Below are positions 21,505-63,394 of a DNA stretch of 64,000 nucleotides, piece by piece. Below the pieces are notes generated by a model. That model had not been told where the DNA came from. It ran no database searches and saw only the letters and a list, made by a program, of their open reading frames with translations. Within the stretch, counting starts at the first letter, position 1. Every line of letters starts with the position of its first letter. The position numbers were made by a program, and so were the translations under genes. The stretch is taken from the NCBI GenBank assembly GCA_030248295.1, contig JASANH010000183.1, forward strand, positions 496,001 through 560,000. The letters run 5' to 3'. This DNA comes from Mesodorylaimus sp. YZB2_4 (lineage: Eukaryota > Nematoda > Enoplea > Dorylaimida > Dorylaimidae).

Positions 21505-21692
21505 CATGTTTTACCACATCACCAAACGCTTATGCGCACTCGAGGGTGATGGGAAACATTTTACACGAAATGATTTACCGGCCCGCGAGTCGAACACTCG
21601 CCCGTAACTGCGCACCTGGCGTGAGAGGCAGACGCCTAACCCACCAAGCCGCGAGGCCGGCCATGTCATGCCATACTTTATCTATAACCAAG
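21505..21692 (-). mobile_element. tRNA-derived SINE, with tail of a second copy
   Basis: Read on the minus strand, 21662-21505 has a tRNA-like head: an A-box-like GGTGGGTTAGGCGTCTGCC and a B-box-like GTGTTCGACTC. The family tail CCCTCGAGTGCGC follows. Just 5' of it, 21692-21663 is the tail (GATAAAGTATGGCATGACATG) of another copy, so two elements are head to tail. Members of the family are also at 25190, 31925, 38475, 46926 and 57817. Confidence 0.75.
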
Positions 21693-22472
21693 CTTGTCGC
21701 TTCACCCTTTTTAAAACTACATTCTTTAGAGTTTCCCAAAGTTGTACAGCATATTCATGCTGTAAATTTGCAGGTCAGTGAGTCAAAAATGTTTTAGATA
21801 TGCAGATATGATTATCACTGAGGACTAGTCTAGCGTAGGTAGATCTGTTGTATTGCAGCCCTGTTTTACTGCATCCTCAGCTCGAGTACAGTATGCACTC
21901 GAGGATGAAGGGCACATTATACCGTAAACGAAATGATCAGTGAGACGATAAGACGGGAAGAAAAAATTAATCCTACTTGAAGTAGCAAACCTTGGAACTA
22001 AAAATCTCTACTTCGGCACCTACTGCAGATTGCGTGTTCTGGATCTTTAGGATACCCAAACATTTTTCTCACAATCTGTGTTAAACGAACATTACGTATA
22101 AAATGATCCAGTACACAGTAGTTCGCTTTAGTGTTTTGCACGGTATATTTTGTTCATTTCAATTTTACCCACGATTTTCAAAATCCGAAACGACGGGTTC
22201 ACCTCAGAGCGTCGGTTTCAAATAGGTTGGTCTGAAGGAACTAACACGTGATTCTGGTATTTGGTTTGCAATCTGCAATATACACTGCCTTGGATGTTAG
22301 AGCACCCGCATTGTCTTTCTGTTGCTCGTGTCGGTGGGGGCTCGGTGGGACTGATCTATGTTACCTTGTGCAGTAGATCACCCAGTTTTTCAACACTGTA
22401 TGTGGTTCTTGTTTCTTACAGCGTTCAGTGAACTCTGGGGCTCGAAGCTAAAACGCCGTGATTTTATGGGCT
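21693..22472. other. Repeat-rich intergenic DNA
   Basis: No gene seen. A SINE tail fragment (reverse of CCCTCGAGTGC) lies near 21895-21940. Confidence 0.4.
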
Positions 22473-22668
22473 TGTAACCCCTCGCCTGGTAGGCCATGGC
22501 GACTGGGAGAGAGTAATCGATACTCTCCCCTGGCTGGGAAACGTCAACCCCTCTGGTTGATATTTCAGGCGTAGGTATAGTCGCAAGACTATCCTGCTTC
22601 AGTCGGAGTTTTTGTCCCGCCGACTTCGGTCGGCCGCCTCCCTCCTACGCCTGCCAGGCCTGGTTACA
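22473..22668. mobile_element. Hairpin-rich element with TGTAACC/GGTTACA ends, copy 1
   Basis: It begins TGTAACCCCTCGCCTGG and ends CCAGGCCTGGTTACA, so the ends are inverted repeats. Inside are several potential stems: GAGAGT/ACTCTC, a long stem around CAACCC...GGGTTG-like sequence, and ATAGTC-GCAA-GACTAT-like sequence with a GCAA loop. Three more copies occur in the window. The size and inverted ends suit a MITE. The conserved internal hairpins could equally mean a structured RNA. Confidence 0.75.
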
Positions 22669-22907: not shown

Positions 22908-23078
22908 GTAACCCCCCGCCTGGTAGGCCATGGCGAGTGGGAGAGAGTAATCAATACTCTCCCCTGGCTGGGAAACGTCAACCCCTCGGGTTGATGTTTC
23001 AGCCGTAGGTATAGTCGCAAGACTATCCTGCTCCAGTCGGAGTTATTGTCCCTCCTACGCCTGCCAGGCCTGGTTACA
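22908..23078. mobile_element. Hairpin-rich element with TGTAACC/GGTTACA ends, copy 2
   Basis: Same orientation as copy 1. It begins TGTAACCCCCCGCCTGG and ends CCAGGCCTGGTTACA. It is slightly shorter because the segment around the GGCGG/CCGCC stem near the 3' end is missing. The GAGAGT/ACTCTC stem and the GTC-GCAA-GAC hairpin are kept. Confidence 0.75.
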
Positions 23079-31324: not shown

Positions 31325-31499
31325 TTGTTACCCTCATGCCTGGTAGGCCATGACGACTGGGAGTATCGGCTGGGAGACGTCAACCCCTCGGGTTGATATT
31401 TCAGCGGTATGATCGTAGACTTGGTCGCAAGACTTGACTGCAACAGGCGGAGTTTTTGTCCCGCCGACTTCTCTCCTTCGCCTGCCAGGCTTGGTTACA
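31325..31499. mobile_element. Hairpin-rich element, copy 3
   Basis: Begins TGTTACCCTCATGCCTGG and ends CCAGGCTTGGTTACA. The GAGAGT/ACTCTC hairpin has been deleted. The GTC-GCAA-GAC hairpin, the CAACCCCTCGGGTTG stem and the GGCGG...CCGCC stem remain. Confidence 0.75.
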
Positions 31500-31734
31500 C
31501 GTTGACCAGAAATAAGACCATCATACTGTAGTCGCAATCCAGTCCGCGATATAAATCTATGCGCAAATAACTTAAGGAGTCAGAAGTGTATTACTACGAT
31601 CGTTACTACTCGACTTCTTCTTAGCCAACGATTAGGCCTTATAATGAGCGAGAGCGTAGGAGATTACGGCTAAAATATTAATGGTAATGTTAGCGTTCTA
31701 AAATGCCAGTGACATGCTACGCATATACGTGTAT

Positions 31735-35007: not shown

Positions 35008-35144
35008 GCCCCGACGGGAGTAAACAACTTTAGCGTCTCTCTCCTCTTCTCATTCATCCTTGAGACTCGTTCTGGTACAGTACACACTGTCCTCATTTCA
35101 GTTACCGAATACTGTAAGCGCTATCGAGAAAAGAAAGTGCAAGA

Positions 35145-37019
35145 ATGGTCCTTGATCTAAATCTTCAACAACTACAGCTACTATCCAGTGTGTATACAGC
35201 TACCGACGAGGCTGGCGAGAGCAATGACAGCATGAACAAAACCGTCGCCTTGCCACCAGTCGGTGTGCCCGATGTGGATCTGATGAATCAATTAGGGGTC
35301 GGAATGGAGACGGACGGTGGGCGTGGTGCATGGACAGAAATCGAACCATCCGCCTTCTCCAAGAACACCATCAATCCTATCCGTCGTATCGTCGATGCCA
35401 TGAACGTTCAACCTAACCCCAACAAAGACCTGTTGAAACTGCACATCGGCGACCCCACGGTCACGGGTATCCTGCCAACCCACCCAGCCGTGAACGCGGC
35501 TGTCTTGGAAGCTCTGCTCAGTAACAAGTACAATGGATACGGACCCGCCGTTGGGTTCCCGGAAGTGCGTCGCGCCTTGGCTGACCACATCAACAAAACG
35601 TGCCATGGAAGCGCAGTATCGGCGGAAGACATCATCCTGACGAGCGGCTGCTCGCACGCCTTGGAGATGGCGATCGAAGTACTGGCCAATCCTGGCTCAA
35701 ACATCTTGGTGCCCAGACCTGGTAAGCATCAACTTTGCCAATGCGCTGCCCCATGCAAGGCTGTTTGATTTACGCTGCTCCTTCCCTCGCAGGATTCCCT
35801 CTCTACGAAACTCTTATGCGTCCTCTGAACGTCGAACCCCGTCACTACGATCTACTGGCTGATCAGAACTGGGAAATCGATTTACAACAAATGGAATCCC
35901 TGATCGACGAACAAACTGTGGCCATCGTGGTCAACAATCCTAACAACCCGACTGGCGCCGTGTACACCCGCGAACATCTCGAATCGATCCTTCGCTTGGC
36001 TCAATCCCATCGTATTCCAGTAATCGCTGACGAGATCTACGGCGACATGGTGTTCGGCGGTGCTCAATTCTATCCCATGCACACCTTGGAGCCGAAAGTA
36101 CCCATACTGACCTGCGATGGAATATCAAAAAGGTAAGCGAAAACTAGCTTTCCCCATTTGATATATGACCTTGTGCAGCCTGCTGAAGGCAAGGATACAA
36201 GACAGGCGCGGAGGTGCGGTAAGCACGTGGTCGATCCATCACTGTCACGGATGCGAAAACTTCTTCCATTTTTAAACACGTCCGCACATTATCTCGTTTA
36301 TCATTTTTGTTTACCCATCTCTTCTTTCTCTTAGATACTTGGTACCCGGTTGGCGTCTGGGATGGCTCATCGTACACAACATTGATCAAGCCTTGACGCA
36401 CGTTCGGACTGCTCTGTGCCAATTGGCTCAAAAGATTGTTGGTCCGTGCTCATTGATGCAAGGCGCCTTGCCAATGATCCTCGAACGTACGCCCCAAGAA
36501 TTTTTCCAACGCACCCGCGACATCTTGGAAGAAAACGTGCGTCTAGTCTTCGACCGACTGGCCGATGTGCCTGGCATCACACCCATCCGTGCCAACGTCG
36601 CCATGTACATGATGATCAAGTTGGACACTCAATGCTTCCCTGCATTTGGTGGCGATGATCTTGAATTCATCCAAGCTCTGATCAGTCAACAAAGCCTTTA
36701 TTGCCTACCCGGCTCAGCCTTCTACTATCCCGGTGCAATTCGCTTCGTCATGACGCACTCCCGAGACAGCATGGTGGAAGCTTGCGAACGGCTCAGATCC
36801 TTTTGCTCTTGCCATTTCAAGGCATCGCCTTCCTCGCCATCACTTCTCGCTCGTCACCACCATCAGAAGAACTCTCTAAGTAAAAGGCATCAGAGGCAGC
36901 TTAACGGTCTGCTTACCGCAATGGCCATCGACAAGGGAGAAAAGAACAACAAAATGGGGCAAGTGTCGACTGAATTCGCTGCTCTCACCTCGGCCAGGTC
37001 TGGTGTACAGGCTCAATAG
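35145..37019 (+). CDS. TAT: Tyrosine aminotransferase, 3 exons
   Basis: Exons 35145-35721, 35793-36132 and 36335-37019 join in frame to 533 aa. It is a fold-type I PLP aminotransferase that transfers the amino group of tyrosine to 2-oxoglutarate, giving 4-hydroxyphenylpyruvate, the first step of tyrosine breakdown in the cytosol. Visible motifs are NPIRRIVDAM, GDPTVTGILPT, the NPNNPTG loop, ADEIYGDMVF and the PLP-lysine region GISKRYLVPGWRLGW (Lys about residue 305). Enzymes of this type are usually about 450-465 aa. The extra length here is an N-terminal extension and a Ser/His/Lys-rich tail of about 60 residues after the last conserved block. The tail is in the same uninterrupted exon. Confidence 0.93.
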
Positions 37020-38474: not shown

Positions 38475-38649
38475 GGGTCGTGGGCTAGCGGGTTAAAACG
38501 TCTGCCTTTCACGCTAGGTTCGCACTTACAGGGGAGGGTTCGACTCCAGCCTGCGATAAAAATGATTGTCGTTTATTGTGCTCCTTAGCCCTCGAGTGCG
38601 CTGTATGGTGCTGGGCTATGGATAAAGTATGACATGACATGACATGACA
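38475..38649 (+). mobile_element. tRNA-derived SINE, best full-length copy
   Basis: Head: GGTCGTGGGCTAGCGGGTTA (A-box region), then CGTCTGCCTTTCACGC. The B-box is GGGTTCGACTCC. The body contains CCCTCGAGTGCGCTGTATGG and GGCTATGGATAAAGTATG. The 3' end is a simple repeat of TGACA. A tRNA-like 5' part with internal Pol III boxes and a short tandem-repeat tail is the hallmark of a SINE. Confidence 0.85.
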
Positions 38650-44700: not shown

Positions 44701-47700
44701 ACCGTTAGTAGCGTAAACTGGACGACACAGTCCGAGTTCGCCCGTGTCTGAACAGTACCCGACACGTGTAAGGGGATGAGGGACGGTGGACAGTGTCTTG
44801 GCTGGCAGTGTAAATGCGTCTTTAGTTTTCTCTCGGTTCGCCAGTCTCTGACCTCGTTTTCCTCTGTTTTATTGACAAACGTACCCGCCTTCGTCTGCTG
44901 GTCGTGATGGGCTTAGGCTCTGAGTTACCGGCTATAAACTGAGTATCGGAGCAGTCAACTGATTTGCTGGATTTGTCGATTCTTAGAATTTCTTGCAAGC
45001 TTTTTCTTAGCCCGATAGTTTTTGACGGGCCAGTGTAAAGCAGAAATGTCTGCAACAACAGGTAAAGCTTCGATTTTGATTTTGACTAGCGCCTGCAAGT
45101 CTTTTGCATTTTGAGCTAGTTAGTTTCTTTAGCTGATGCATCTTTTGCATCTGAACAACTCAAAAGATGAAAAAAGCAATAAATTTTAGAAATTTGCGAT
45201 GCAGGCCGCATTGTCTTCCCAGACCCACTGTCTTCGCTTACACTTTCCACTACAGACTTCAAAGTCCAACCTGGCCTCACCTCCCCACAGTTAACCTTGT
45301 TCCACGCAGTAGGTGGCAGCCAGCAATGACCCGAGACGTGTGGTCGCCCTGCCCCCTGCTGCTGGGAATTATATGTTCATGCTAATCAATCACCTTCCTT
45401 TGGAGAAGTTTGGCATTTCATCCATCAAACTGGCATGGTTTTCCTTTTACTCGGGCCAACTATAACTGCGCTGGTTTGAATACACCAAGAAAAAGAGGTG
45501 TCAATTGCTTAAAAATTTTTAGTCTCTAATTCATAACTTATCATCTGCCTGCAGAGACTGGTGATAAGATAAAGACAGAATATTTGAATTATTTTGTTAT
45601 TCCAGACCGTCCAGCCAAGCCACAGCGGACATTTGCCCACGGTAGCACCTCATTGCTCAATAACCTACCATCCGAAAATTTGGACCCTGTCCAGTTCGGA
45701 TCTACAGCATTGATGAATAATAGTTGCAGCAGTGTAAATAGCAGTTTTCGTTCCGATGCTCGTGGCCCTATCTCGACGACAATGCCCCCAAAGGGCAGCA
45801 GTGCATCATTATCCTGTTCAAAACCACCGCCTCCACCCCCGCGGCTCGGGGTCAGTCGATCGTATGGTGGGCAGCAGTTTCCTGTGTATAATTCTCAATC
45901 AGCACCGCCACTGCTTCCGCCCCAATTGCCACCAAAACCAGCCAGCATAACCAGTGACAAATCGATCACCCCTTCTGCCCAGATAGCGCAAAATGATAAC
46001 AGCTCTCGACAAGCAACGCCAGTTTACACTGCCCAGCAAAGACAGCATGGACCAGGAGGTGCTCAGGGACGACCAGCCCACATCCACACCAATGGCAGTA
46101 TCAACGGGGCAAATTTGAACAGCTCGCCACCTCATTACCACGCAACGAAAACAACTGTTTTCGCTTATCACCAGAGTTGTTCACGTGCTGATAAGACTGT
46201 ATCAGCGACAGTATCTTATCAGACAAGTGAGAAAATAAATGATGGACAGAAACGATTGAATTTGGATGCTATGGAGCGTTTGACTCAATTTGGTGGCGAC
46301 CCACTGACTGACGAGAATTTAGCGAGAAATTTAGAAAACGGTTTTAAAAAAGGCGTTTGTTGGGTAAGTGGCCAGGTTCGAATCCCAGGGGCTACTTCGC
46401 TTTTGGACTTTAGTTCTCTTTGGACTAATGTTCCTTTTCTTTTCAGTACGAACTGGGCCCGGTGCTATTGTTTGTGAACCCGTTTAACGACGTGGCATCG
46501 CCTCCGACATTTGCAACTATGAGGGACACATCGAGACCTCTAAAGAAGTTGGCGCGTGACATTCACTCGCGGTTTTTCGAATCGGATGTATCGCAGGCAG
46601 TCGTCTTTGAGTAAGAAAATATTTTGAATCTTCAGATGGGTTATCATTAAAAAATATTGGCCAATCAGAGCGCAGAGTGCCACAATACAAATGCATTTAA
46701 AAGCAGTCAGCTCTACCTTTTTTAGTGGTGAGCGCGGCAGTGGCAAAACATATTTATCGAATCAACTGGTCAAAGAACTTATACGTCTTTTCTCTCCTGT
46801 TGTGAGTGGCACGAACAAGACATGGATGGATAGTACTATTTACAAGCAGTTTGGTGCAACACTGACTGTGCTTCGAAGTTTGACTAGTGTCAGACGAAAG
46901 GAACAAGGATACTCGAGTCAGGCGGTATGTGTCATATGTCATGCCATACTTTATCCATAGCCAAGCACTATACAGCGCTCTCGAGGGCTAAGGAACACAT
47001 ATCCTTGACAATCATTTTGTACCGAGGCGTGAGAGGCAGACGCCTTAAACGTCTTGGCCACGACCCCGGTGAGCTGAGACAACTCAAAGTAAACAATGCA
47101 GATGATATGTCTGTGTTAAAAATAGACAGCTTGAAACACCTTTTTAAGCTCAGGCTCTCCGCTGTACTGTAGCTCAAGCTTTCAAGAGCCGATTGACCCA
47201 TGAGTTTTAACATTCACTGCATCGCAATTATGGACGTACAGTCATGATATTTGTTACCTATATATTTATGTTTAATCATACTGTAATCCAGATCACACTG
47301 TACTAGTACTTCACCTTGCATATGGTTCTGCACACTGAGTGTATTTTGGGACACTGACGATGCAGCTGCCATTGTGCATGCCACTCTCAATTATCGATAT
47401 CTCATATTGTAACAATCGATACCTACCTATACACTGTGTATAAAAGCATTTTTTGCGTATACAGTGTAAATCTTCGACAAATGCACAACGCATATTTCAA
47501 CAATTATTTGACAGGGTTTTGTGCGGGCATTTACAGTAGAATATCGATTCAACCTGACAAGTGAAAATTTTTACCCATGATGTTATGCCTATTTGCACGT
47601 GTATTTGTAGAGCATAAACTTTGCCTCCTTTAGGCGTTCTTGTACGAGCTGCATATGGCGGATGGAATTTTGTGTAAGGCAAAAGCCTACTGCAGCTTAC

Positions 47701-50700
47701 TAGACCACGTAAGTGACTGTCGAAAGTACTCACGTGAACACTATCTAGCGATAGTTGTTTTCCCTTTTTTGCAGCATAGACTGGCTCACTCACCTCTCGG
47801 TGAAAGTAACTACCAAGTATTTTACCAGCTGATGGCCGGCTTAAGCGCTGACGAAAAACGTAAGTTGACAGGATACTTGTCCGCGTGGTTTTGTAATAAA
47901 GTATATAATACTCGTGACATTAGATATTTTAAGCGGATTCTGCATGCATTGTGCTGACTACCTCGAACATGGTGGGTAGAGTGCAAAGGGAACTCGCAAC
48001 ATTTTATTTATGAATCCCCTCATTAATTGCCTTCTAATTTCAATGTGTTGCTTGTACAGCCACAGCCATGCAAAAAAGCATCCGCAAAAAAAACTTTTTT
48101 AAAATCAGATAACTCTGTGAAAAAGCGATAAATCTTTTTACGAACTTTGAATTAATTTGCAACGCGATAGTATTTTACAAAAGTACCGGCATGGTACCTT
48201 AAATTTTGTGATGTTCGTTTCAAGAATGGACGTCAATTGGTCCGAATGTTTGCAGCAGCAGGTGGCAAATGTACGATGCCGGTGCTAGAAGATAGCTCTT
48301 CCTTTTGTACGATTCATGTTACAATTGCAGTTATTATTGTTTTTGTGCACTTTTTTGGGGTCTTTGGGCCGCCATATGAGAATCGCGTGATAGATTTCGA
48401 TAATTGTTGATACTGGCATGCCCTACCTATCAACCTATGACCCTACAAAACGATTTTGCATAACAATGGTTGGTTGTCGAGATATGCAGACAAAACCATT
48501 TCGCCTGTGTTATACGAGTAAGATACGTCGGGTCTCCGGACCCAAGAGTTAGACCAACTATGGGTTAATGTTTCTGACTTTCAATTTCTCTGTGGTTTCA
48601 CTAAAATCGTCCTGGGCCAATAAGTAGCTTCATCACTTGTATCCCCAGGCAGTCAAAGTGCTATGTGAAATATGAATGAGGTACCGAAGTCATAAGATAC
48701 ATTTTCAGCACCCATTTTCTGGTTTGATTTCATAATTTTGCTTTTTCTAGCATTTACATTGCAATCATTATCAAAAGTTCATGTTATTAGGGACTACGCA
48801 TCAGCACGAATGCCTAGTGATAGGACTTTTGTATAGCTTCGTATTCGCCGGACCGAAATCCTGTGTGCCCCTTACTCATCTCCCCAGATCGGACCTCTTT
48901 AATCCCTTGAATAGCCCCTGGGACAATAGAGGATGTGCAGTATGTCCTTCTGACCCTAAATAGTATTGTGTTATTGGGTGGATGAGCCTGATGGGGCCTA
49001 GCTGTGGGTTGAAAGCGAAATGAACCATGTGTAACCAAGCGTGCCAGGCGTTGCAAGAAATGACCGCAGTCATTTTCTGCTGTGCAAGAAATCTTCAGCA
49101 GATTTTGTCCTGCCGGCTGGGCTTGGTCGCAGACCAGGAAACTCAATAATTCTCTCACATTCGGGCTACACCTGCAATATCAAGCTTTTACCAATGGCTG
49201 TGTGCTCTACTCACTGAAGAGTACATGCAGTATAACGCGGACACTCCGCGGGTACGTCTAACCGCGATGCTTCTAGTGTGCAAAAGTGTGTTTCTACATA
49301 GTATCTATCTGTTTTGTTTCGTCACTTTTGTAAGTTGCAGGATGAGAATTTTTTTATACTGTAGTTTTTATTCTTTTCAGGAAAATTCCATCTTTTCGAC
49401 TACTCGATCGATGATTTGCATTACCTCAATTCCACGAGCTCTAATTTGATTCGACCTCAAGCCTCAGATCAATCTCCCTTGAGGAACCAGCAGCAAACAA
49501 ATATGGATAAATTACTTTTCTCACAGTTCAAATTGGCTTTGTCAATTTTGGGCATCCCATTTTCGGACATCGTGCGAATACTGGCCGCTGTATTACTTCT
49601 GGGAAATATTAGATTTGTGGAGAATAAGAATGGAAATGGAGAACTAGTGACTGAAGGAAATAAAGGTAAGAAGAGACCCTTGGGAAGTTGGGCGGCCGAA
49701 ATGCAGTTCTGGCACACCTAAATTTACAAAGGTCACTGGGGGGGGAGTATAGCATTGACCAATCTGCGATGAGGAATCTTGCCTGAACGATGCTGATGTT
49801 GCAGAATTGGACTCAGCAGCAGCCCTTTTGGGTGTCACGACGTTGACATTACACAAGGCACTTACGTGGCACCAGCGACGTCAAAAAGACGAACTCGTCC
49901 AACTGTCCTCATCAGTCCGTCATGCCAATGAAGCCGTCACTTTCTTGGCCACCACTTTGTACCACCGCTGCACTTCGGCCATCATTCGACGAGCCAACAG
50001 TCTCAAGCCATCGTCAGCACGACATGCAAATGCTACATCGGGGAATAGAGGGTGTACACTGTCGTCTGGTAGTTGCACTAATCTGATCAGCGCGAGACCA
50101 GCGTCAGGAATCAGCAGTTCTGACGAGTCGTCCGTGCACGATTCTGGGATCGGAATAACGAGCCAAGCATCGCCTAATGTTTGCGCCAATGGTGTCAACA
50201 GTTCATCGTCTAGAAACTCGTGTCAGGGATTGGAGGGGGTGATCAGTATGGTGGATTGGTTCGGATTCTCGAACGGAGAGGTAAGTCCGTTCCAGCCTGT
50301 AGGAATCAAGTTAAGGAATCACCAAGGAATCACCTACTCGAGGCCATCCACAGAAGCCCACTTATGGTCTTTACAAGACTGGAAGGATTTCGTCCCAAAA
50401 AGTCATAATCTTATAAATAAAAAACTAGCGAGCCCAGGCACGAAAAACATAAATTTTGAAAACTTCTAGGCCCGTTTGAGATTTGGACAATCATGAATTT
50501 AAACCTGATGCATCCCTGCTCAGATCGGCTCCACTCGCCCATCGAGACTGCGGCCAACGCACCAATCTTTATCTTATTTTTGCAGCATAATCACTTCGAG
50601 CATCTCTGTTCGAACTTTGCCGCCGAAAAGCTGCAGCATTTCTATCAAACTCAAGTGTTTAAACGAAGCAGTGATTTGGCGCAACGTGAAAGTGTCCACT

Positions 50701-53700
50701 GCGATTTCGATTGGCAATTGTTCATCGATGCTGATATGTTATCACCAATGATTGGCAATGATGGTCTGATAAATCATGCGTCCCCATCTTCTTTGCTCGG
50801 CATTATGAATATTCTGGACGAAGCCAGTGCTCTGGTTTGTGGTGGCGATCAGAATGAGTTGGAAAAAGCGCTGGAGAAACGAGTGGGTGAAAATAGGTAA
50901 GAGTTACAGTACGAGCATGCACATTATGAACTGTCCCTGTCAACAGCGCTCTTATTTTATGAAAGCATTTAGATTATATTTTATGATAGCTTGGATAAAT
51001 ACAGTTTTAGCTATCGTGAGACCGATACCACAGAAAATTTCTTACTCGATACTGTCCTGTAGTTTGGTTTTCTGTCGAGCATGCTGAGTGAGCCTTTCGC
51101 ACTGACATGACCTCATTCATTTGATGCAACTTGACGTTTTTAAATGGAGAGCGCGAAACGCCTCGGATAATGAAGGCCAACCGTTCGCAAATAACTATTT
51201 CAGGAGGCTAAAAATTCAGTCATCTTCAAACTCGATTTCTTTCATTGTTCGACACTACGGTGGAATGGACATGGCATACAATGAGATCCAGGATTATGTC
51301 AGTGTCAATCGTGATCAAATGAATATCGATTTGGTACGCATATTCTCGACGCAGACGTGCAATTTTGGATTCCTTTCTTACTTATTCACACCTGATTTGA
51401 GGAAGCTCGAAAGTATACTTGGTTTTACTAATTCTGGTCGGTCAATAATTTTTACAGCCGTTTTATAGATCAATCGGATGCAATAAGTGTGACGAGGATC
51501 ACTCCTATATCGGCTGTTGATAGCAGACCGTAAGTATGTGTTACAGTAGCATGCAGTAGTGGAGATGCCAGCAGCGCATCATAACTATCAGCGGTTGGTT
51601 TTGTTCTGATCGCCAGCTTGCACACCATGCTTTGCGGGGATGACTTATTCAGACCCGTCAGGATTTCGAGTGTAGGGGACGAAAGCCGAACGGGTAGGCA
51701 ATCCAACGTCGGCAGGGTTTAGAGCCTGCCCAACCTAGTGCTCCCGAAGTCTCCAAAACTGCCTGTTCGATCAATCCAAATAGCGGTGATTGGACTGGGC
51801 GTGGTTAGGACGGACTTAGGGCAATTACGAGTGATTGTAATCAAGTCGTAGGTGGCCTTGATGCAGTATCCATATTCTGCAGTAATGCAATCGTGTCCAT
51901 GTTTCAGGGATCAGACAACGTTTGCGCAAGATTTCACGTTACAGACGGACGCGTTTCTTAGGAATATTGCTGGATCGAGAGTACAATTTGTGCACTGCAT
52001 AAAAGTAAGCACCGATGAACAATATGATGCAGATATAAAAAATTTTTAGTTGTTTATACGAGTGTGAGATAAATTTTAATATTTTTTATTTTTTCCAGGC
52101 TAATCCAAACACAGAGTACTTTTATTACGACTCTGAATCTGTTGTTAAGCAATGCAAGCGATTGGATATCTTGCCCACTGTGCATTTACTGAATGCTGGT
52201 CTCCCCTATGTTATGGATTTAAAAGAATTCAATGATCGGTATCGATTTTTGGCTTTAAAATATCACAATCCGATCATACTAAAACATGCGCCCAGTTTGG
52301 CTGAGGAAGCCCGGGTAAGTCGATGTTATGCTTATGCTCTAAGGGCGGATTCCAGCCCATAATTGTTTAGATGAAAACGGATTAGGAATTATCAGGGAGC
52401 CAAGTTGATGCTGCAGACAAGATGCGCAGGTGGAAGGTTCCCGTGACAGATACCACTCGTGACCCTCATGCCTGGTAGACCATGGCGGGTGGGAGAGAGT
52501 GATAGACCTTCCCTGCCTGGGAAAGGTCACCCACTCGGGTTGATGTTTCAGCCGGTTATGGTCGCAAGACTTGCCTACTCCATTCGGAGTTTTTGTCCCA
52601 CCGACACACTCCTTCCTGCGCATGCCAGGCTTGGTTGCACGCTGCTTAATGTGATTTACCGTTCTTTCAGGCAATAGTCGATTGCTACCTTCGAGCAGTG
52701 GATGAAAGCAACCTGCCCTACATCTCGAACCATTGGGCTGTTGGAAATGAGCATGTGTTTCTCAGGTATTGCGGGTCCTTTCTGTGCCAATTTAGATCAA
52801 ACTGGACTGCTTGCTGGAACTCGCGGTCCTTTAGTGATGGAGCTCGAGTTCAATTGGAATTGCTGCGAGACCAACACCGAACGAAAGCAGTGATCACGAT
52901 ACAACGACGTGTCAGACAGTGGCTTCGGAAGAAACGAGGGGGCAAGCGGCTATACGTCACGCGTGCAAATACGAAATCTGCTGACATCAAAATGCAGCGA
53001 ACCATGAACACGAGAACTAGTGACAGCTTTTTCTATACTTCGGCGACAAAGAATTCTAAACTGAGGACATCTGGCTGCAGCGATACTTCGGTAAGCATGG
53101 GGACTATCATATGACGGTAGGCTATAACTACGAGAGATTAGATACGCTGATGATCGCATGCAGTACTTCAGCCTGAGAGCTTGCTTCATTCAAATGCGCG
53201 ACGATCGACGGTGCTGGTAAGGCAGCATTTTATCGCGGTACAGCTCGGCTGTTTGAAATTGTGGATTCCTAAAGTTCTCTACAGTATAGTGCAACACTGA
53301 TAGAATAGCGTAAGGAGCCTGATATAGAAAAGTACCGTGGTATATTATGCCATTATCAGAATGACTGCAATCTTGCGATGTTAACAATACGTGCCATCAA
53401 CAGCTGCAGAGATCTGAAACTATTACGTATCTATTTGACGCATCATTTAAAAGTGTTAAAAATAATTTTACAATACTGTATATGTAACCTGTGCTCGCGA
53501 GCCCATAGTGTGCCCATCGATGAGCACAAGTAATTCAACCACTTGTCTTCGATTGATAGAAGTCAGAGGCTGCTACTGTGAGTGTTATGGGGTGCCTCCC
53601 TGCGGCATCACCTACGTCATTCCTCCTTGGGATTTGTTTGGGTGTTCCTATGTCCTATGGGACTCACTACGTGATAAGCGCGTGTTACAAATATTTAAGC

Positions 53701-54303
53701 CAGCTGTTATGACAGTGTGCCATAAAGAGGTCGATGATCTCTTGAATCTCTTCCTTTCGGTTTGATCGACATGACCGGCAGTTCGATCGTGATCTTTCAG
53801 CTGTCATGCTGATTTATCATTTTTGAGCTCCGGTATCCTTTGTCTGGCTGTCAGGTTGACAGTCCTCTTTTTCTGATCGCCTGCACCTTCTGCATTTCTG
53901 CATTTCAGCTTATCAGTGAATGTACCAACACATCACGTGCACCACCTCCATTGCCTCCCAGCCGGAGCTACAGTGTTTACATGGACAAGAAGGTTAATTT
54001 TCCACAGCGTCGTGTGTTTGTTCAAAATTATAAAGGTATGCTGAACCACCACCAGGCTTTAGAAGGAGAAAAAACACTGAATCATTTGTTATAAAAAATG
54101 CTTGTTTTATTTTAGACCCATCAACGTGCGTTTATTTTTCTCAACATCAAATCGTCACAGCCCTGGGATGGGGGCCAACCAGGAATCAGTTGCTGATTCG
54201 CTATCCTCATACAAACGCGAGCGGAAATACCAGTGGTACTTCAGTGGTAGTAGTCCCAGCCAGTTACACCAAGTTGTGCGTGGGGTCGTCGCTGATTCAG
54301 TGA
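41741..54303 (+). CDS. Divergent unconventional myosin with degraded motor core, proline-rich ends; possible Dachs/class XX relative, 18 exons
   Basis: Exons: 41741-41885, 42560-42910, 45606-46363, 46447-46610, 46726-46924, 47634-47708, 47775-47859, 49381-49665, 49805-50280, 50586-50896, 51204-51421, 51469-51529, 51908-52004, 52099-52314, 52671-52765, 52835-53090, 53909-54035, 54116-54303. They join in frame to 1368 aa. The N-terminal ~390 residues hold a predicted coiled coil (ETAVEVQELRNQVKMLSHEL) and proline runs (PPPPPPRLG). The motor starts at LGPVLLFVNPFND. Its P-loop is GERGSGKT. Later blocks include SNYQVFYQLMAGL, ILAAVLLLGNI, HFEHLCSNFAAEKLQHF, VQFVHCIKANP and RLDILPTVHLLNAGLP. The converter leads to VFLSDG and one IQ motif (about residues 1195-1215). 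The short tail has APPPLPPSR. Switch I and switch II are abnormal. The exon 11/12 junction is the least certain; an alternative donor exists at 51412. The class is my inference. Confidence 0.88.
45046..45061 (+). CDS. Possible alternative first exon of the myosin gene
   Basis: A short exon, ATG TCT GCA ACA ACA G, is followed by a GTAAAG donor. It ends in phase 1, which matches the acceptor at 45606. Used as a first exon it would give a product starting MSATTD and lacking the first two exons with the coiled coil. The sequence before the ATG (CAGAAATG) resembles the context of the SLC4 start. Confidence 0.4.
46926..47067 (-). mobile_element. Internally deleted tRNA-SINE in the myosin intron
   Basis: On the minus strand the head GGTCGTGGCCAAGACG is followed by GGCGTCTGCCTCTCACGCC. 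The B-box segment is missing. The body CCCTCGAGAGCGCTGTATAG and tail GATAAAGTATGGCATGACAT are present. It starts about 2 bp after the exon 5 donor (exon end 46924), antisense to the gene. Confidence 0.8.
52459..52640. mobile_element. Hairpin-rich element, copy 4, in a myosin intron
   Basis: Lies in the intron 52315-52670. It starts GTGACCCTCATGCCTGG and ends CCAGGCTTGGTTGCAC. It keeps the GGTCGCAAGAC hairpin and the GGGTTGATGTTTCAGCC side of the long stem. The GAGAG hairpin is degraded. Confidence 0.72.
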
Positions 54304-57816: not shown

Positions 57817-57988
57817 GCGTCGTGACCTAGCGGGTTAAGGCGTCTCCCTCTCGCGCTGGGTGCGCACTTACGATTAGGGGGAGGGTTAGACTCCCGCCTG
57901 GGTAAAAAACATTGTCAAATATGTGTTCCCTAGCCATCGAGTGCGCTACATGGTGTTTGGCTATGGATAAAGTGTGACATGACATGAC
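57817..57988 (+). mobile_element. tRNA-derived SINE, full-length, antisense in the lustrin/Kunitz gene
   Basis: Head GCGTCGTGACCTAGCGGG, then GGCGTCTCCCTCTCGCGC, B-box-like GGGTTAGACTCCCGCC, body ATCGAGTGCGCTACATGG, tail GATAAAGTGTGACATGACATG. Its 3' end lies about 30 bp past the exon donor at 58018 (gene on minus strand). Confidence 0.82.
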
Positions 57989-58017: not shown

Positions 58018-61000
58018 TGCATATGCCCAACAGATTGACCTCGTTCGAAGCACAAATGCAAAATCCATTCCGGCAAGTAGCTCTCGAGCCTGCACCGTGT
58101 CTGCATTCTTCATCATTGATACATGGCTGACCAGCGAATGCACCTAAGTGGCAATAAAGCTTTTCAGCGGCACGAAAGCATGCTGCAGATATGATGTGAT
58201 CGCAGACTGTTGTCAACCACTGACTTACCGTTCTCCAACTCGATCTCCACTTCGATCTCATCTGCCTCGACCACAGTCAACGCTTGGCTGGTGGTGGTTG
58301 TCACCGCACTGCTTCGGCAACAAATCATGGTCCCGTTAAACTCGTTCGACTGGACACACCGATAATTCCTGGGGCACGGCGGGCCATTCGGATCGCAGGC
58401 CAAGGGAACGCCAGTATTTGGGTACAAGTAGGGAGCACTTCCAGGAGGGCATCCAGTCACGTTGTTAGCAGAGGTCTCTCTGGGTGACGTGACAGCTGCA
58501 ATTGCTCTGGCACTGCCCTCGGTCGATAAGGTGTTAGCATCGACTGGGCGAACAACGTTTGTGGACACGGCTGTGGTAGTTGGTGGTGGTGAACAGCAAC
58601 GATAATCGCTGGATATGAGTGACGGGGTACAGGAATATCCCGTGGGGCATGCAGGACTGTTTAAAGTGCAGACGAGCGGGGTCTGAGTGGGTTGATAGAT
58701 GAACGCGCGACTACCGCGTGGGCAACCGTCTGAAAATAGGACATAACTACAATAACTTCTTCTCGCTTGGGCTTGGGTGCAAATACTAGTGGCTCCTTTG
58801 CTTTTTGAAAAGAGCATTTATTTGAACGTACCTGCCGATACGTTTGGTGCTGGCGCTGGTCGTGGTGGAGTGGTAGAGCAGCATTGAAATGACGTCCGAG
58901 TGATTGTACTGCGAGAGCACTGGTATCCAGTGGGGCACTTACCGCCACTGTTTGGAAGGCACGCTAGAGGCGTATTTGAATAGGTGTACATGTAAGCCCT
59001 GGTTTCGTTGGGGCATCCAGCATCTAAAAGCGATTTCTGTGTCCTTTGTCATTTTTGGTGCAGTGAACTACGCGACACAGGGATAAGCTGTTTGGGAGAT
59101 CCACATACCAGCACTGACACTGCAGCAGTAATCACCATTCGGTGAATACAAGCACGAATATCCTCGCGGACAACGGTTCGCCTCAGAACAAGCCAACGCT
59201 CGACCTGTCTGCGTGTCAATGGCTGGTATTCTACCTCGAGGGCAGACGCTTGAAGCTAGTGGAAGTGTCGGCCGGGTTGTCGTGTTCAAAGGGAGGGCTG
59301 AAACGAACATGGCTTATCATTGATATTTGATCGGTGAAATGAACTACCTCAGCTAGTACAACATACTGTTTGTGACACTAATAAGGACAATGTGAGATGC
59401 ACCCTAGCCAAAGTGTATTTAATCGCCAAGTGACCCTCTGAGCAGATGGACAACCTGGATACTCGCAAAATAAAACTTCTTAAAATCAGGATCCAATTAA
59501 TTAATGCAATAGTCGCGAACATATTTGTAAATACTGATAAGTGGAAGACATAGATAAGGGTCAGTTCAACCCCTTACTGGTTGTGTTGGGCAGCGAACAG
59601 CATATGAATCGACCTCGTCCAGCATCGTAGCTACAAAACGAGTTGTTGGGGCATCGTGGCGACATTACGTTTGGACTGCAGTAAGCGAGCGGACTGACTG
59701 GCAAAGAATCTGCTGGACATCCGCCTAAAAATCAGAATATAGAGAATAGTAACCAGATTTATCGAGTGTGTCCACACAAAGTCCGCAGATTGGCGTAGTC
59801 AATCCCAACTCAGTGTAAATGAAATCGAGTAAGCACTCTGGCTTTACTCATCTAACAAGGCTGCAAACAAAGAATACCATTTACCTGTAGGCGACCCAGT
59901 AACTCTGGTCGTGGTTGGCAACGTGGTTGTTCTGGTCTGATTTTGGAAACCGCAACAATAGTAAACATTCGTAGGCGAGTACAAATCACATGTATAGCCA
60001 ACCGGACATGAGGCCAATGTCGATGGCACGCACAAGGTGGGGGCGCCAGCTCGATATAGCGGTTGCTTGCCCGCTGAACACACGTTGATTACTGAAACAG
60101 GGTGTGATTCATCTATCATCTATCAAACGTGCCCATATATACTCTATAAAACGTACGCAGCACTCATTTTCGCCTTTTAGCCATCATGTACCTGCCAATA
60201 TCCAGGAAAATTACAATTTCAAGTGGGCCGAAATATAGCAGCGGCCCCATGCTACACACTGCACCTGAGTGACCTGAGTTCCCCAGGTCACTCAGGGGGT
60301 AATAGGTATCGCATTACAGTAAGCCAAGCTACACGTTCCATTGTCCCACAAGGCATAATATTTACCACAAATCCTCGCTTGTACTCCACGGACTATAGGT
60401 TTTTAAAGTCCCTAGGGACCTGGGGATAGCAGCGAGAATGACGATTTACAGCACTTAAATGCCTCCTCATTCGCCAGATCCGATGACGGATCCAATTAGG
60501 AGATGGGACAAAAATTCGCTCAGGACCTTCTACCCGCGCCCGCTATAAGATCGAATACTAGAAACCAATGAGCTGACTAGCGCTAATGACCCGGTCTACG
60601 CAAGTTTCTTGGTGCAGACGATTACATCGACGACTATTTCATCAGGTGAGCTCCATATGACAAGACCACTTACACGAAGATGCAATAGCACAACACGTCC
60701 CACGCAAACACTGATAGGGCGCAGGGCACGATCGTACTGTACTATTGCAAAATACTGCTTCCGATTTGCTGTCTCGATAAGGAGCATAACCAGTTCCGCA
60801 CGGATCTGAAAGGTGAAAACGCACAGTCTGAGCAGATTCAAATAAAGCTTCCAAAACCGGACAAGGGCTGCGGACCGACCAAAAGATTCAAGCTGAGCAA
60901 TCCAGTTTGCGTACTTTCCGCAGAGCAGCAATGTCCTGTCGACGATGCCACATTGCCAACAGTAATAGTGATTGGCTGGCAGAAATATAAATTTGGACAC

Positions 61001-63394
61001 GATCCGGGCACATCGGGCGTGCATTGCCTCGGTTGTGGCTGACCAAGATATGTGATGGTGTCGGTGAGTAACTGACTACCGTCAGGGCATGGTGCTGAAA
61101 ATAGCACCTTCTGTTATGGCAGGGCCTACTCAAAATCTGTAAACGCAAAGCACCACAATGGGCCGTACAAGCGAAAAAGGATTCTTGAAGATCCTCGTGC
61201 CCGCTGGATGAGCAGCAAGATCATCCAGACCTGTCTCCATTAGTAGTCAGTGAACAAGAAGTTGGACGTCCAACTCCTTGTTCACTATGTATGTCCCATC
61301 CCATACGAAGTGCACACAGTCACTTACTAAAGGGTATCCCACAACAGTGGCTGGTCCTTGACGCATCATCGTAAATGCAAGAATAGCCAGCCGGGCACGT
61401 GTCCAAATTTGGAACGCATTGCAAGGGTTGATTTGTCAGTGAGTCCACATAAGCCCCTGAATAGACGTGCGTTGAGCGCGGATGACAAAAAAATTCACAT
61501 GCGAAAGTTAACCTTTACAAGCCATAAGAAACATGAACTTACTCTGACCACGAGGGCATAATCCAGTCGGGGCATTACTTCCACAGCACAGCGTCGTGTT
61601 TAGTACGGTCGAACCCAAACAAATCCCATTGTTGCTGGTACACGTCGACCAACCGACCTCATTGGCGGTGCAGCTGATCGTCTCCTGATTCATACCTTGT
61701 CCACTCATCGCGATTTGTCCAAAAGGGCATCCTAAGACCAGGGAAATAGAACTTTGACTGTTGCGGTGATAAGACTTTTTTTGCAAATTTTGGAGGGCTT
61801 GCCACGATTCTGATGCGGAAAAGCGTAAAACCAATTATCTCAACTATCAGCACCCTAAAAAATTGGAGTCCCGAAAATAAGTGCGGAAACTAGAAATTAG
61901 AAGTAAAGGATGCAATAAAGCGTCATCAGAAACTATTACTGAATTTTAAGCCGTGAAATAGGTTCTGGACCTGCATATACAGCAAGCGGAACCTATGGTA
62001 TGTCCGCAAATAAGGCGTGACTCGACTAGGATCCATTACTGGACCTACCGGCAGACTGACAAAACTTTGAGCATGACTCCAAAGTAGGGAAGTTATTATC
62101 GTTCCCACCACACCCGTTGTACTGAAATGACTCGCACGCGCGACTTCTCGAATTGAAATAATAACGTGCGGTGGGTGATGCAGCACCACAGGTTGTTCCA
62201 AAGTCACGTGCTAGTGAACATGTGTGCACTGAAATGAAGGGATTGCCATCAGTCAAGGGGATGAGTTAAGCGAAGCAGTCAGAAATACCTCGCGTCGGGC
62301 AGCAGTAGTAGCCTCGATTATTAGTGGTGCTGTAAGGAATGGTGATGGCCGAACAAGCGTAGTTGGCTGGGCAGTCATAGCCCACTGAACCAACACTAGA
62401 ACATGTTCTGAAACGGCCATTCTCCTCGTACGGTTGGCCATGGTCGGGGCATCCTGCAAAGAGGAAATCGAACGGTGACGAGCAATCTTGCTACTAATAT
62501 TAGCATACAGCATCTCTATGCATACATCTTGTACTGCGCAGTGCGCTCTGCGGATAAAAGCTTACTGTATCTAAAGCAAAAGAACGTGTAGATAGAGTTA
62601 CATACTGTATATATCTATAAGTAAGTGTACTGTGCAACTCTATACACAGTTGTGAATGCTAGGTACACGATATCAGATCAGCTGTATCAAAACTTTTAAC
62701 CACAGGAGTTTGGTGCCAGTGCATGGCTGGCACGTAGCTGCTTAATATAAAGCCTCAGCTTTACAGTCACTGAGCCTGTACTCAGTACAGTGTATAGCAA
62801 GCACAAATACTAAATATGGCTTGCTTTTGTAGTGATATATATTGTACAGCACTGCAGGCCACGATGAAGTATTGCCTTGCCAGAACCACTATCAAGTTCA
62901 TTTCCACTTTATCAAGCCCACATCTGTTATACCTGAGAATCTACAGTAATCCTCGCAGTCCATTCTGGTCGCGAAATTATTGGAATTTCCATCGCAGCCA
63001 TTGTAGCGGAAGGTTTCGCATACACGAGTCAATGCATTGAAGAACCAACGGACAACTCGAGCGCCGGACAAACACGACGTGCCTGCATCAGCTTGTTCGA
63101 TCATGCAGCTTTGCACTGAAATTGAGCTGAACATTATCGCACGAGCAACTGACCACTACCATATAGCAGACCAGAAACACCAACTGGCGAATTGTGTGTA
63201 ACACTGTCATAGAAAACAAAGTGAGGCACGCTTACCCAACGTCGGGCAGCATAAGCCGGTCCCTTGATCATTGAAACAAAAATAATTCATTGGGCATGCC
63301 TGTTGCAGTCCATTTACAACGTCCATACGACCACACTCGATGTAGGAATCATCCGAGTTCCGAGCTGCTTTTCCAAATGGGCATGCAGGCTCAG
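58018..63394 (-). CDS. Secreted modular protein: lustrin-like cysteine repeats, two Kunitz domains and an EB-like module (partial)
   Basis: Exons, 5' to 3' on the minus strand: 63394-63236, 63115-62933 (Kunitz), 62453-62289, 62228-62049 (Kunitz), 61731-61543, 61456-61328, 61094-60915, 60805-60674, 60091-59885, 59724-59578, 59297-59109, 59023-58832, 58729-58229 (two repeats), 58143-58018. All junctions read are phase 1. The lustrin-like repeats have the pattern CPxG ... C ... CPxGYxC ... CC. The Kunitz domains show [16 protein letters not shown] and [16 protein letters not shown], each with six cysteines. The last exon ([25 protein letters not shown]) resembles an EB module. Such proteins are secreted, often in the cuticle or matrix, and Kunitz domains usually inhibit serine proteases. 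The first exon with signal peptide and the last exon with stop are not placed. Confidence 0.88.
60264..60296. repeat. Perfect 13-bp inverted repeat (hairpin) in an intron
   Basis: CCTGAGTGACCTG and CAGGTCACTCAGG separated by 7 nt. It is in the longest intron (60092-60673) of the lustrin/Kunitz gene. Confidence 0.75.
61250..61285. repeat. 36-nt palindrome in an intron
   Basis: GTGAACAAGAAGTTGGAC followed directly by its complement with one mismatch (GTCCAACTCCTTGTTCAC). It lies in the intron 61095-61327 of the same gene. Confidence 0.75.

Follow-up and report, generated by a model that had tools for sequence, protein, structure and literature searches.

Gene structure

The window, a stretch of 64,000 nucleotides from the nematode Mesodorylaimus sp. 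YZB2_4, contains a myosin gene whose coding part comprises 17 exons and specifies 1205 amino acids (Table 1). An earlier note on this DNA had placed the myosin at 46447..50280; both bounds are exon boundaries, the start of exon 3 and the end of exon 8, and the gene extends beyond this span, which takes in its nucleotide-binding part. All 16 introns are of the GT-AG type with consistent phases, no stop interrupts the 1205 codons, and Pfam places the predicted protein in the myosin superfamily by a Myosin_head match (E 2.3e-68; 231.5 bits against a cut-off of 33.3). That the gene is real and intact is virtually certain. A collagen gene follows it on the opposite strand, from about 54.5 kb.

Table 1. 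Coding features of the myosin gene, in positions of the window
Feature	Position	Strand	Basis or remark
Whole gene, coding part	45046..54303	+	Splice model and Pfam Myosin_head
Exon 1, ATG start	45046..45061	+	Inferred; 5' end least certain
Exon 2, bulk of Pro/Ser-rich pre-motor extension, then motor start	45606..46363	+	
Exon 3, NPFND; shortened stretch ahead of P-loop	46447..46610	+	45 against 52-53 residues
Exon 4, P-loop GERGSGKT (46727-46750), then start of degenerate switch I (QGYSSQA)	46726..46924	+	
Intron 4, within switch I	46925..47633	+	Contains repeat copy 46930-47033
Exon 5, remainder of switch I (AFL) and next strand	47634..47708	+	
Exon 6, ESNYQVFYQLMAGL	47775..47859	+	Splice model
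Exon 7, upper 50K region, LLLGNIRF	49381..49665	+	Splice model
Exon 8, TEDS-site Glu, 79-aa Ser-rich insert, switch II DWFGFS (50254-50271)	49805..50280	+	
Exon 9, relay helix NHFEHLCSNFAAEKLQ	50586..50896	+	Splice model, alignment
Exon 10, lower 50K region	51204..51412	+	Next intron 56 nt only
Exon 11, loop 2 region	51469..51529	+	Not lysine-rich: 4 K+R, 5 D+E
Exon 12, SH1, FVHCIK	51908..52004	+	Splice model, alignment
Exon 13, converter region	52099..52314	+	Splice model
Exon 14, converter end	52671..52765	+	Splice model
Exon 15, one IQ-like motif (IQRRVRQWLRK) and tail start	52835..53090	+	
Exon 16, tail, type I and type II SH3-binding site RAPPPLPPSR (residues 1111-1120)	53909..54035	+	
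Exon 17, C-terminus	54116..54303	+	Alternative: exon 16 read-through to stop at 54094

Nucleotide-binding motifs

The P-loop reads GERGSGKT, and the losses that the earlier note described around it are borne out by alignment. Against NNNSSRFGK of Dictyostelium myosin II, switch I reads QGYSSQAAF, with both Ser kept and the Asn residues, the Arg and Phe-Gly-Lys lost; against MYO10, MYO15 and MYO5a, switch II (within VDWFGFSNGE) has gone from DI(F/Y)GFE to DWFGFS, with Asp and Gly retained and the Glu absent. The region before the P-loop is indeed shortened, the distance from NP(Y/F) to the P-loop, as counted from alignment rows, being 45 residues as against 53 in MYO10 and 52 in MYO15. Relay, SH1 and converter regions are recognisable, a Glu stands at the TEDS position by counting, and the insert (residues 594-672) lies directly before switch II. 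A six-frame scan of the window for SSRxGK and D-x-x-(G/A)-F-E, which an intron-split motif would escape, found neither.

Among paralogues from the same genome, the first Asn of switch I and its Arg are each retained in 15 of 15, and the switch II Glu and a canonical P-loop each in 14 of 15; these counts cover 15 of the 16 fetched loci, L024 being left out as a duplicate from the opposite end of contig C478. Each paralogue row is an automatic assembly of exon matches, obtained with a profile of MYO10 and MYO15 alone, and fills 473-648 of 694 columns, so that single residues next to splice sites can be wrong. NENATRCAIT in L018 and DIFRFE in L017 are possible joining errors at splice sites. The paralogue L019 reads GRCSSGKS, NANSSRF and DFPGYQ.

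Switch I does run across an exon join, now numbered exons 4 and 5 (5 and 6 in the earlier note). The intron, of phase 0, lies directly after the residue that corresponds to Phe in SSRF, and since its position and phase are common to L013, L014 and L021 (three of the 12 paralogues examined), the junction looks real and mis-splicing at switch I is rejected. A repeat starts 5 bases into this intron; because the join aligns without gap or loss, there is no sign that the repeat caused the switch I change.

With both sides of the salt bridge between switch I and switch II lost, and the region before the P-loop short, the motor sequence supports well the earlier proposal of a non-cycling motor, and the window myosin very probably lacks productive ATPase activity. 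The protein likely binds actin without an ATPase cycle.

Extension, neck and tail

The pre-motor extension of 224 aa, encoded by exons 1 and 2, contains 27 Pro and 35 Ser and carries the SH3-type motifs PAKPQR, KPPPPPPR and PQLPPK; no coiled coil is evident in it by eye. The single IQ-like motif lies within residues 1032-1050 and aligns to the first IQ of MYO5a, with Lys in place of the last consensus Arg; Pfam output for the protein includes no IQ motif. In the tail, which is 155 aa long and Ser/Thr/Pro-rich by eye, RAPPPLPPSR forms a predicted combined type I and type II SH3-binding site starting 95 residues before the C-terminus, and 224 of 20000 shuffled tails contained a site of this combined type. 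For the whole protein Pfam lists neither an ankyrin repeat (limit E 0.1) nor a FERM or SH3 domain, and the window is free of MyTH4 matches. The genome has nine MyTH4 matches, on C42 (beside L009), C23 (820-836 kb, downstream of L018), C71 and C178.

The Dachs likeness proposed in the earlier note holds for the layout and for the C-terminal docking site. Published Dachs consists of a pre-motor extension, a motor and a single IQ, and class XX was defined with a short neck and one IQ motif; the window protein has the same extension, motor, one IQ and short tail. The C-terminal 98 aa of Dachs include a type I and type II SH3 site that most homologs retain and that is required for binding Dlish, and the window protein has its predicted site of both types near the C-terminus. 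One IQ-like motif and the predicted combined SH3-binding site are class XX features found here. The N-terminal coiled coil of arthropod Dachs has no counterpart evident by eye in the window protein; it is also absent from the shorter homologs of most non-arthropod taxa. The 79-aa insert directly before switch II would be a further difference from Dachs, for the head of which a 'unique insert' is also mentioned. The likeness is thus one of layout and docking site, as judged from published descriptions of Dachs.

Relationships among myosins

Identity of the window myosin to every myosin compared is 22-28%, as against 42-48% between the reference pairs compared, and its branch is very long (1.9-2.9 substitutions per site). 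Likeness to Dictyostelium myosin II, MYO10 and MYO15 is about equal (28%), and the best PDB scores are those of MYO10 (128.6 bits) and MYO15 (123.8 bits). The references represent class II (half of the Dictyostelium sequence), class V (half of MYO5a), class X (MYO10) and class XV (MYO15) only; L020 and L021 (class I by our reading), L023, L012 and L019 were placed without a reference of their own class. Further weakly matching myosin genes can be missed, since the Myosin_head genome search, in which 65 of 105 candidates were scored, failed to list the window gene itself.

In the tree of real sequences, which includes neither MYO16 nor Dachs, the best placement has 31 alternatives, of which 14 escape rejection, among them the L020 and L021 pair (AU 0.324), L019, the candidate for class XVIII (0.098), and the class V gene L017 (0.069). 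Placement within class II is rejected, all 12 positions inside the seven-gene clade, and the one on its stem, having AU values of at most 0.036; the next stem outward, that of class II plus L019, is retained (0.323). When MYO16 is added as a provisional human sequence, only two stretches of which were compared with print, it becomes the sister of the window myosin with support 95 (92 and 76 for the halves), which is a lead only. Five of the 32 other placements then escape rejection, namely L012 (AU 0.163), MYO10 (0.103), MYO10 plus L009 (0.096), L018 plus MYO15 and MYO16 (0.076), and L018 (0.063). For the second half of the motor, identity to the provisional MYO16 is 22.6% as against 25-27% for MYO10, MYO15 and MYO5a, and 13 private residues are common with it as against 11-14 for the same three.

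MYO16 likewise has a single IQ, and the P-loop of the mouse and rat proteins is identical to that of the window myosin; that of human MYO16 has Ser as its last residue, and GES is found in MYO16 of chicken, frog and fish. Unlike that of the window myosin, switch II is presumably intact in MYO16, going by the provisional sequence. Myo16b has a long tail extension, as against the 155 aa here. Because Pfam lists no ankyrin repeats, which are N-terminal in class XVI, the window protein is not filed as MYO16. In one classification, class XVI carries the remark 'also known as Dachs', and affiliation with class XVI/XX is on balance the favoured placement.

Discussion

The explanation that we prefer, with moderate confidence, is that the gene is intact and encodes a nematode myosin of the Dachs/MYO16 kind (class XVI-XX), with a single IQ, a short tail and a motor that no longer undergoes an ATPase cycle. 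Descent from a MyTH4-FERM myosin of class VII, X, XII or XV, with fast evolution and loss of both tail and ATPase, is an improbable alternative, although the best PDB scores and the retained placements near MYO10, L009, L012 and L018 point in that direction. It also overlaps with the Dachs reading, mammalian myosins V, VII and X having been reported as the nearest to Dachs itself (Mao 2006, as cited in PMC3620549). Against it, the window has no MyTH4 match, the nine of the genome lying elsewhere, and for the same reason the gene is not of class XII. HUM-4, the class XII myosin of C. elegans, is comparable in being a highly divergent nematode motor behind an N-terminal extension (about 200 aa, against 224 here), but it has two MyTH4 domains, a FERM domain and an SH3 domain, none of which was matched in the window protein.

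No more probable is a nematode-specific orphan, convergently ATPase-dead and unrelated to Dachs or MYO16. The very long branch would fit such an origin, as would the lack of relatives in the viral and prokaryote genome contigs searched, which is expected of any animal gene in collections that hold no animal genomes as such; the layout and tail SH3 site shared with published Dachs, and as a lead the trees with the provisional MYO16, argue otherwise. A diverged class XVIII myosin is highly unlikely. A class XVIII myosin has been reported from the nematode Brugia malayi, and MYO18A binds actin without ATPase, as is predicted here. The position beside L019, retained without MYO16, is rejected once the provisional MYO16 is included (AU 0.009), MYO18 has a coiled-coil tail domain where the window protein has its 155-aa tail, and the window myosin is no closer to Dictyostelium myosin II than to MYO10 or MYO15. 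Class XVIII is expected to group with class II, and in full-length trees it is L019 that does so (74, 78). L019 is therefore the better candidate of this genome, though not firmly placed, its class being uncertain because it moves to L018 in second-half trees (97, 96). A pseudogene, or a wrong splice model that only makes the gene appear degenerate, has very little chance of being correct: the model comes from DNA sequence alone and its 16-nt start exon and last exon are uncertain, but 1205 codons stay open over 17 exons with GT-AG sites, relay, SH1 and IQ are recognisable and the switch I intron position is common to paralogues.

For the Dachs/MYO16-like myosin that we favour, Dachs itself offers a model, since it neither binds ATP nor has detectable ATPase and yet binds F-actin independently of ATP; the window motor, with its broken switches, would resemble it in not cycling. 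The head would fold as a myosin and stay on actin with no release by ATP, so that the protein probably holds actin as a fixed scaffold, much as Dachs does. Calmodulin would sit on the IQ-like motif, and the proline-rich sites would recruit an SH3 adaptor, just as Dachs works with Dlish, so that the protein would serve as a scaffold anchored on actin. By this analogy a role as an SH3-adaptor scaffold has about an even chance, and a part in Fat/Hippo signalling, the least certain step, is a tentative suggestion.

The earlier note held that such a protein would be notable in a nematode. According to one paper, dachs is missing from A. suum and C. elegans, both nematodes; class XX was known in 2007 from arthropods and sea urchin only, and a 2016 list of Dachs homologs names no nematode in the part covered. 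Dachs is, however, reported from sponge and placozoan onwards, and its survival in some nematode would thus not be surprising in evolutionary terms. The study that reported the absence of dachs found Fat and Dachsous in nearly all animals, and C. elegans retains orthologues of both. It is conceivable, at somewhat less than even odds, that this is a nematode Dachs, an ATPase-dead scaffold with SH3 docking that was present in the nematode ancestor, kept here with both switches dismantled and lost in Caenorhabditis and Ascaris. A nematode with a Dachs-like protein would offer a way to learn what in Fat signalling requires that protein, and a homologue that has lost both the switch I Arg and the switch II Glu would favour scaffolding over motility as the conserved job.

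Nucleotide site and motor

Alignment to the reference rows Dictyostelium myosin II, MYO10, MYO15 and MYO5a confirms that the nucleotide-switch motifs of the window myosin are broken, as the earlier note had proposed. Switch I, TRNNNSSRFGKF in Dictyostelium myosin II, reads KEQGYSSQAAFL here, and switch II, DI(F/Y)GFE in MYO10, MYO15 and MYO5a, aligns with DWFGFS. The switch I Arg and switch II Glu form a salt bridge required for hydrolysis. The stretch from NP(Y/F) to the P-loop is shortened to 45 residues, versus 53 in MYO10 and 52 in MYO15; together with the losses in both switches, this makes a dead, non-cycling motor a well-supported prediction. Of the P-loop, Lys and Thr remain; of switch I, both Ser; of switch II, Asp and Gly; VHCIK at SH1 and much of the relay helix are also retained. 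The TEDS-site residue, located by counting in the alignment to reference myosins, is Glu, and loop 2 is not lysine-rich (four K+R versus five D+E). Given these features, actin binding is plausible, whereas an ATPase cycle is implausible.

The control set comprised 15 other myosin motors assembled from the same genome (loci labelled L; the duplicate copy L024 was left out). All 15 have the switch I Arg and first Asn, and 14 each have the P-loop GESG(A/S)GKT and the switch II Glu; NxNSSRFGK is complete in 13 (exceptions L018, L019), as is DIxGFE (exceptions L017, L019). Against each paralogue and PDB row the window gene shows 22-28% identity; the next most divergent myosin, L019, shares 37% with its nearest, and the reference pairs compared share 42-48%. 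Across three reference rows 191 columns are invariant (91 + 100 in the two halves), and the window gene retains 90 of them (42 + 48). For scale, any one reference matches 91 of the 124-126 first-half columns common to the other two and 100 of 136-143 in the second half; in those columns the window gene matches 50-55 and 56-61.

Gene model and splicing

All 16 introns are GT-AG and the reading frame is maintained across all exons, the weakest ends of the model being exon 1, of 16 nt, and exon 17. Myosin head is the sole Pfam match over cut-off (2.3e-68), AAA_16 and TsaE being weak and under it, and the Pfam listing for the 1205-residue protein contains neither IQ nor ankyrin. Neighbouring genes mark the DNA as that of a nematode: one matches the N-terminal domain of nematode cuticle collagens (2.4e-19), a second the Srsx chemoreceptor family (1.5e-36).

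The earlier note named a splice path with canonical switch I and II as refuting. In L013, L014 and L021 a phase 0 intron lies right after NSSRF, and intron 4 of the window gene, right after YSSQA, shares its position and phase; among the 12 of 15 paralogues inspected, eight further ones have no intron there and L018 is ambiguous. A six-frame scan of the window, to which intron-split motifs are invisible, found neither SSRxGK nor D-x-x-(G/A)-F-E. The shared intron position and the motif-free scan argue against alternative splicing that would restore canonical switches.

Features of the window myosin gene, its surroundings and two further myosin loci (unprefixed positions are those of the window, C23:496001-560000, in a genome of 145 Mb and 1067 contigs)
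Feature	Position	Strand	Remarks
Myosin gene	45046-54303	+	17 exons, 1205 codons, spliced at consensus sites
Pre-motor extension			224 aa, proline/serine-rich
Motor insert			79 aa, serine-rich, directly before switch II
IQ-like motif	within residues 1032-1050		single; alignment to first IQ of MYO5a
Tail			155 aa, after IQ-like motif
Alternative 3' end	stop at 54094		exon 16 read-through
Short interspersed repeat, intron 4	46930-47033		starts 5 bases into intron, adjoining switch I splice donor
Other copies of intron 4 repeat	38559-38649, 57891-57985, 21663-21693		last one short; copy near 57.8 kb tRNA-derived in appearance (by eye)
Intron 13, dispersed repeat copy	52315-52670		
Other copies of intron 13 repeat	22479-22668, 22918-23058, 31327-31504		72-84% identical to intron 13 copy; second repeat family
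Collagen gene	from about 54.5 kb	-	downstream of myosin gene
Aminotransferase class I/II gene	35118-37016	+	several exons; possibly tyrosine aminotransferase
Lustrin-type cysteine-rich repeats, Kunitz domain	58167-58817, 62026-62262	-	possibly one long gene
Open frame, 827 codons	275-2755	-	chitin-binding peritrophin-A domain
L018, myosin	G000:C23:807000-816999		
MyTH4 matches downstream of L018	G000:C23:820514-835869		
L019, divergent myosin	G000:C149:33500-42500		

Relationships

Class labels of paralogues are our reading, with reference sequences for classes II, V, X and XV only; L017 joins MYO5a (support 99-100 in half-motor trees) and L018 joins MYO15 (62 and 92 in full-length trees, 97 in one half-motor tree). 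A tree of the window gene and 17 real sequences, built on 580 columns, puts the window gene on a very long branch next to MYO10 (support 42). When a provisional, non-database sequence of human MYO16 was added, it became the sister of the window gene (support 95; 92 and 76 in half-motor trees), and the AU test gave this placement 0.958, retaining five of 32 others (best 0.163). Half-motor trees lacking MYO16 set the window gene next to L018 (39) and MYO10 (45). Identities speak less clearly: in the first half, provisional MYO16 is 30.7% identical to the window gene versus 27-28% for others and has 21 private residues in common with it versus 6-9; in the second, the values are 22.6% versus 25-27% and 13 versus 11-14. 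Because that MYO16 sequence is provisional, the sister relationship is a lead. The window P-loop, GERGSGKT, equals that given for mouse and rat MYO16; GERGSGKS is listed for human, GESGSGKT for chicken and frog, and GESGSGKS for zebrafish (PMC7464383). One classification lists class XVI as "also known as Dachs" (PMC3942036).

Orthology with Dachs is a plausible possibility. Dachs is described as showing no ATP binding, no detectable ATPase and ATP-independent F-actin binding, its action as a myosin being an open question (PMC12828244). Class XX, known in 2007 from arthropods and sea urchin only, is characterized by a single IQ and a long N-terminal region that includes a coiled coil (PMC2375034). 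Mao 2006 and Cao 2014 are cited via PMC12828244, PMC5047748 and PMC3620549. The window tail sequence was settled before comparison with the published description of the Dachs SH3 site. RAPPPLPPSR, starting 95 residues from the end, satisfies both SH3-binding consensus forms, and such a site arose in 224 of 20,000 shuffles of the tail (138 of 20,000 for the alternative shorter tail). Since the N-terminal part also has an SH3-type site, KPPPPPPR, the match is supportive and not diagnostic.

With real sequences, the AU test retained 15 of 31 placements, including the best: near MYO10, L009, L012 and L018/MYO15, on other deep branches, with the L020+L021 pair (0.324), on the class II + L019 stem (0.323), with L019 (0.098) and with the class V gene L017 (0.069). 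The 16 rejected are the positions within class II or on its stem and those next to L020 singly, L021 singly or L023 (0.046). Class XII, whose member HUM-4 has MyTH4, FERM and SH3 domains (PMC9775386), is rejected, as none of the genome's nine MyTH4 matches (contigs C42, C71 and C178, and C23:820-836 kb) lies within the window.

Two further myosins are unusual. L018, about 260 kb from the window gene on the same contig, is 49% identical to the MYO15 row in its motor, with switch I NENATR (Ala-Thr in place of Ser-Ser); class XV is stated in PMC9775386 not to be found in nematodes. L019 (P-loop GRCSSGKS, switch II DFPGYQ) groups with class II in full-length trees and with L018 in second-half trees; it is a candidate class XVIII myosin and possibly also ATPase-dead.

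Implications

The window myosin is most likely an actin-anchored scaffold. Its head would hold F-actin without release by ATP, calmodulin would sit on the IQ, and the proline-rich sites would recruit SH3 adaptors; we infer all these binding steps from sequence features that are themselves observed. Membership in Fat/Hippo signaling, extrapolated from Dachs, would be a guess. According to PMC3620549, whose species include Brugia malayi, dachs is absent from A. suum and C. elegans, and none of the titles and abstract openings listed in a literature search covering few subscription papers reports a nematode Dachs or class XX myosin. The window myosin is probably a newly found member of a known group of ATPase-dead, actin-binding myosins, and its interest lies chiefly in its host.
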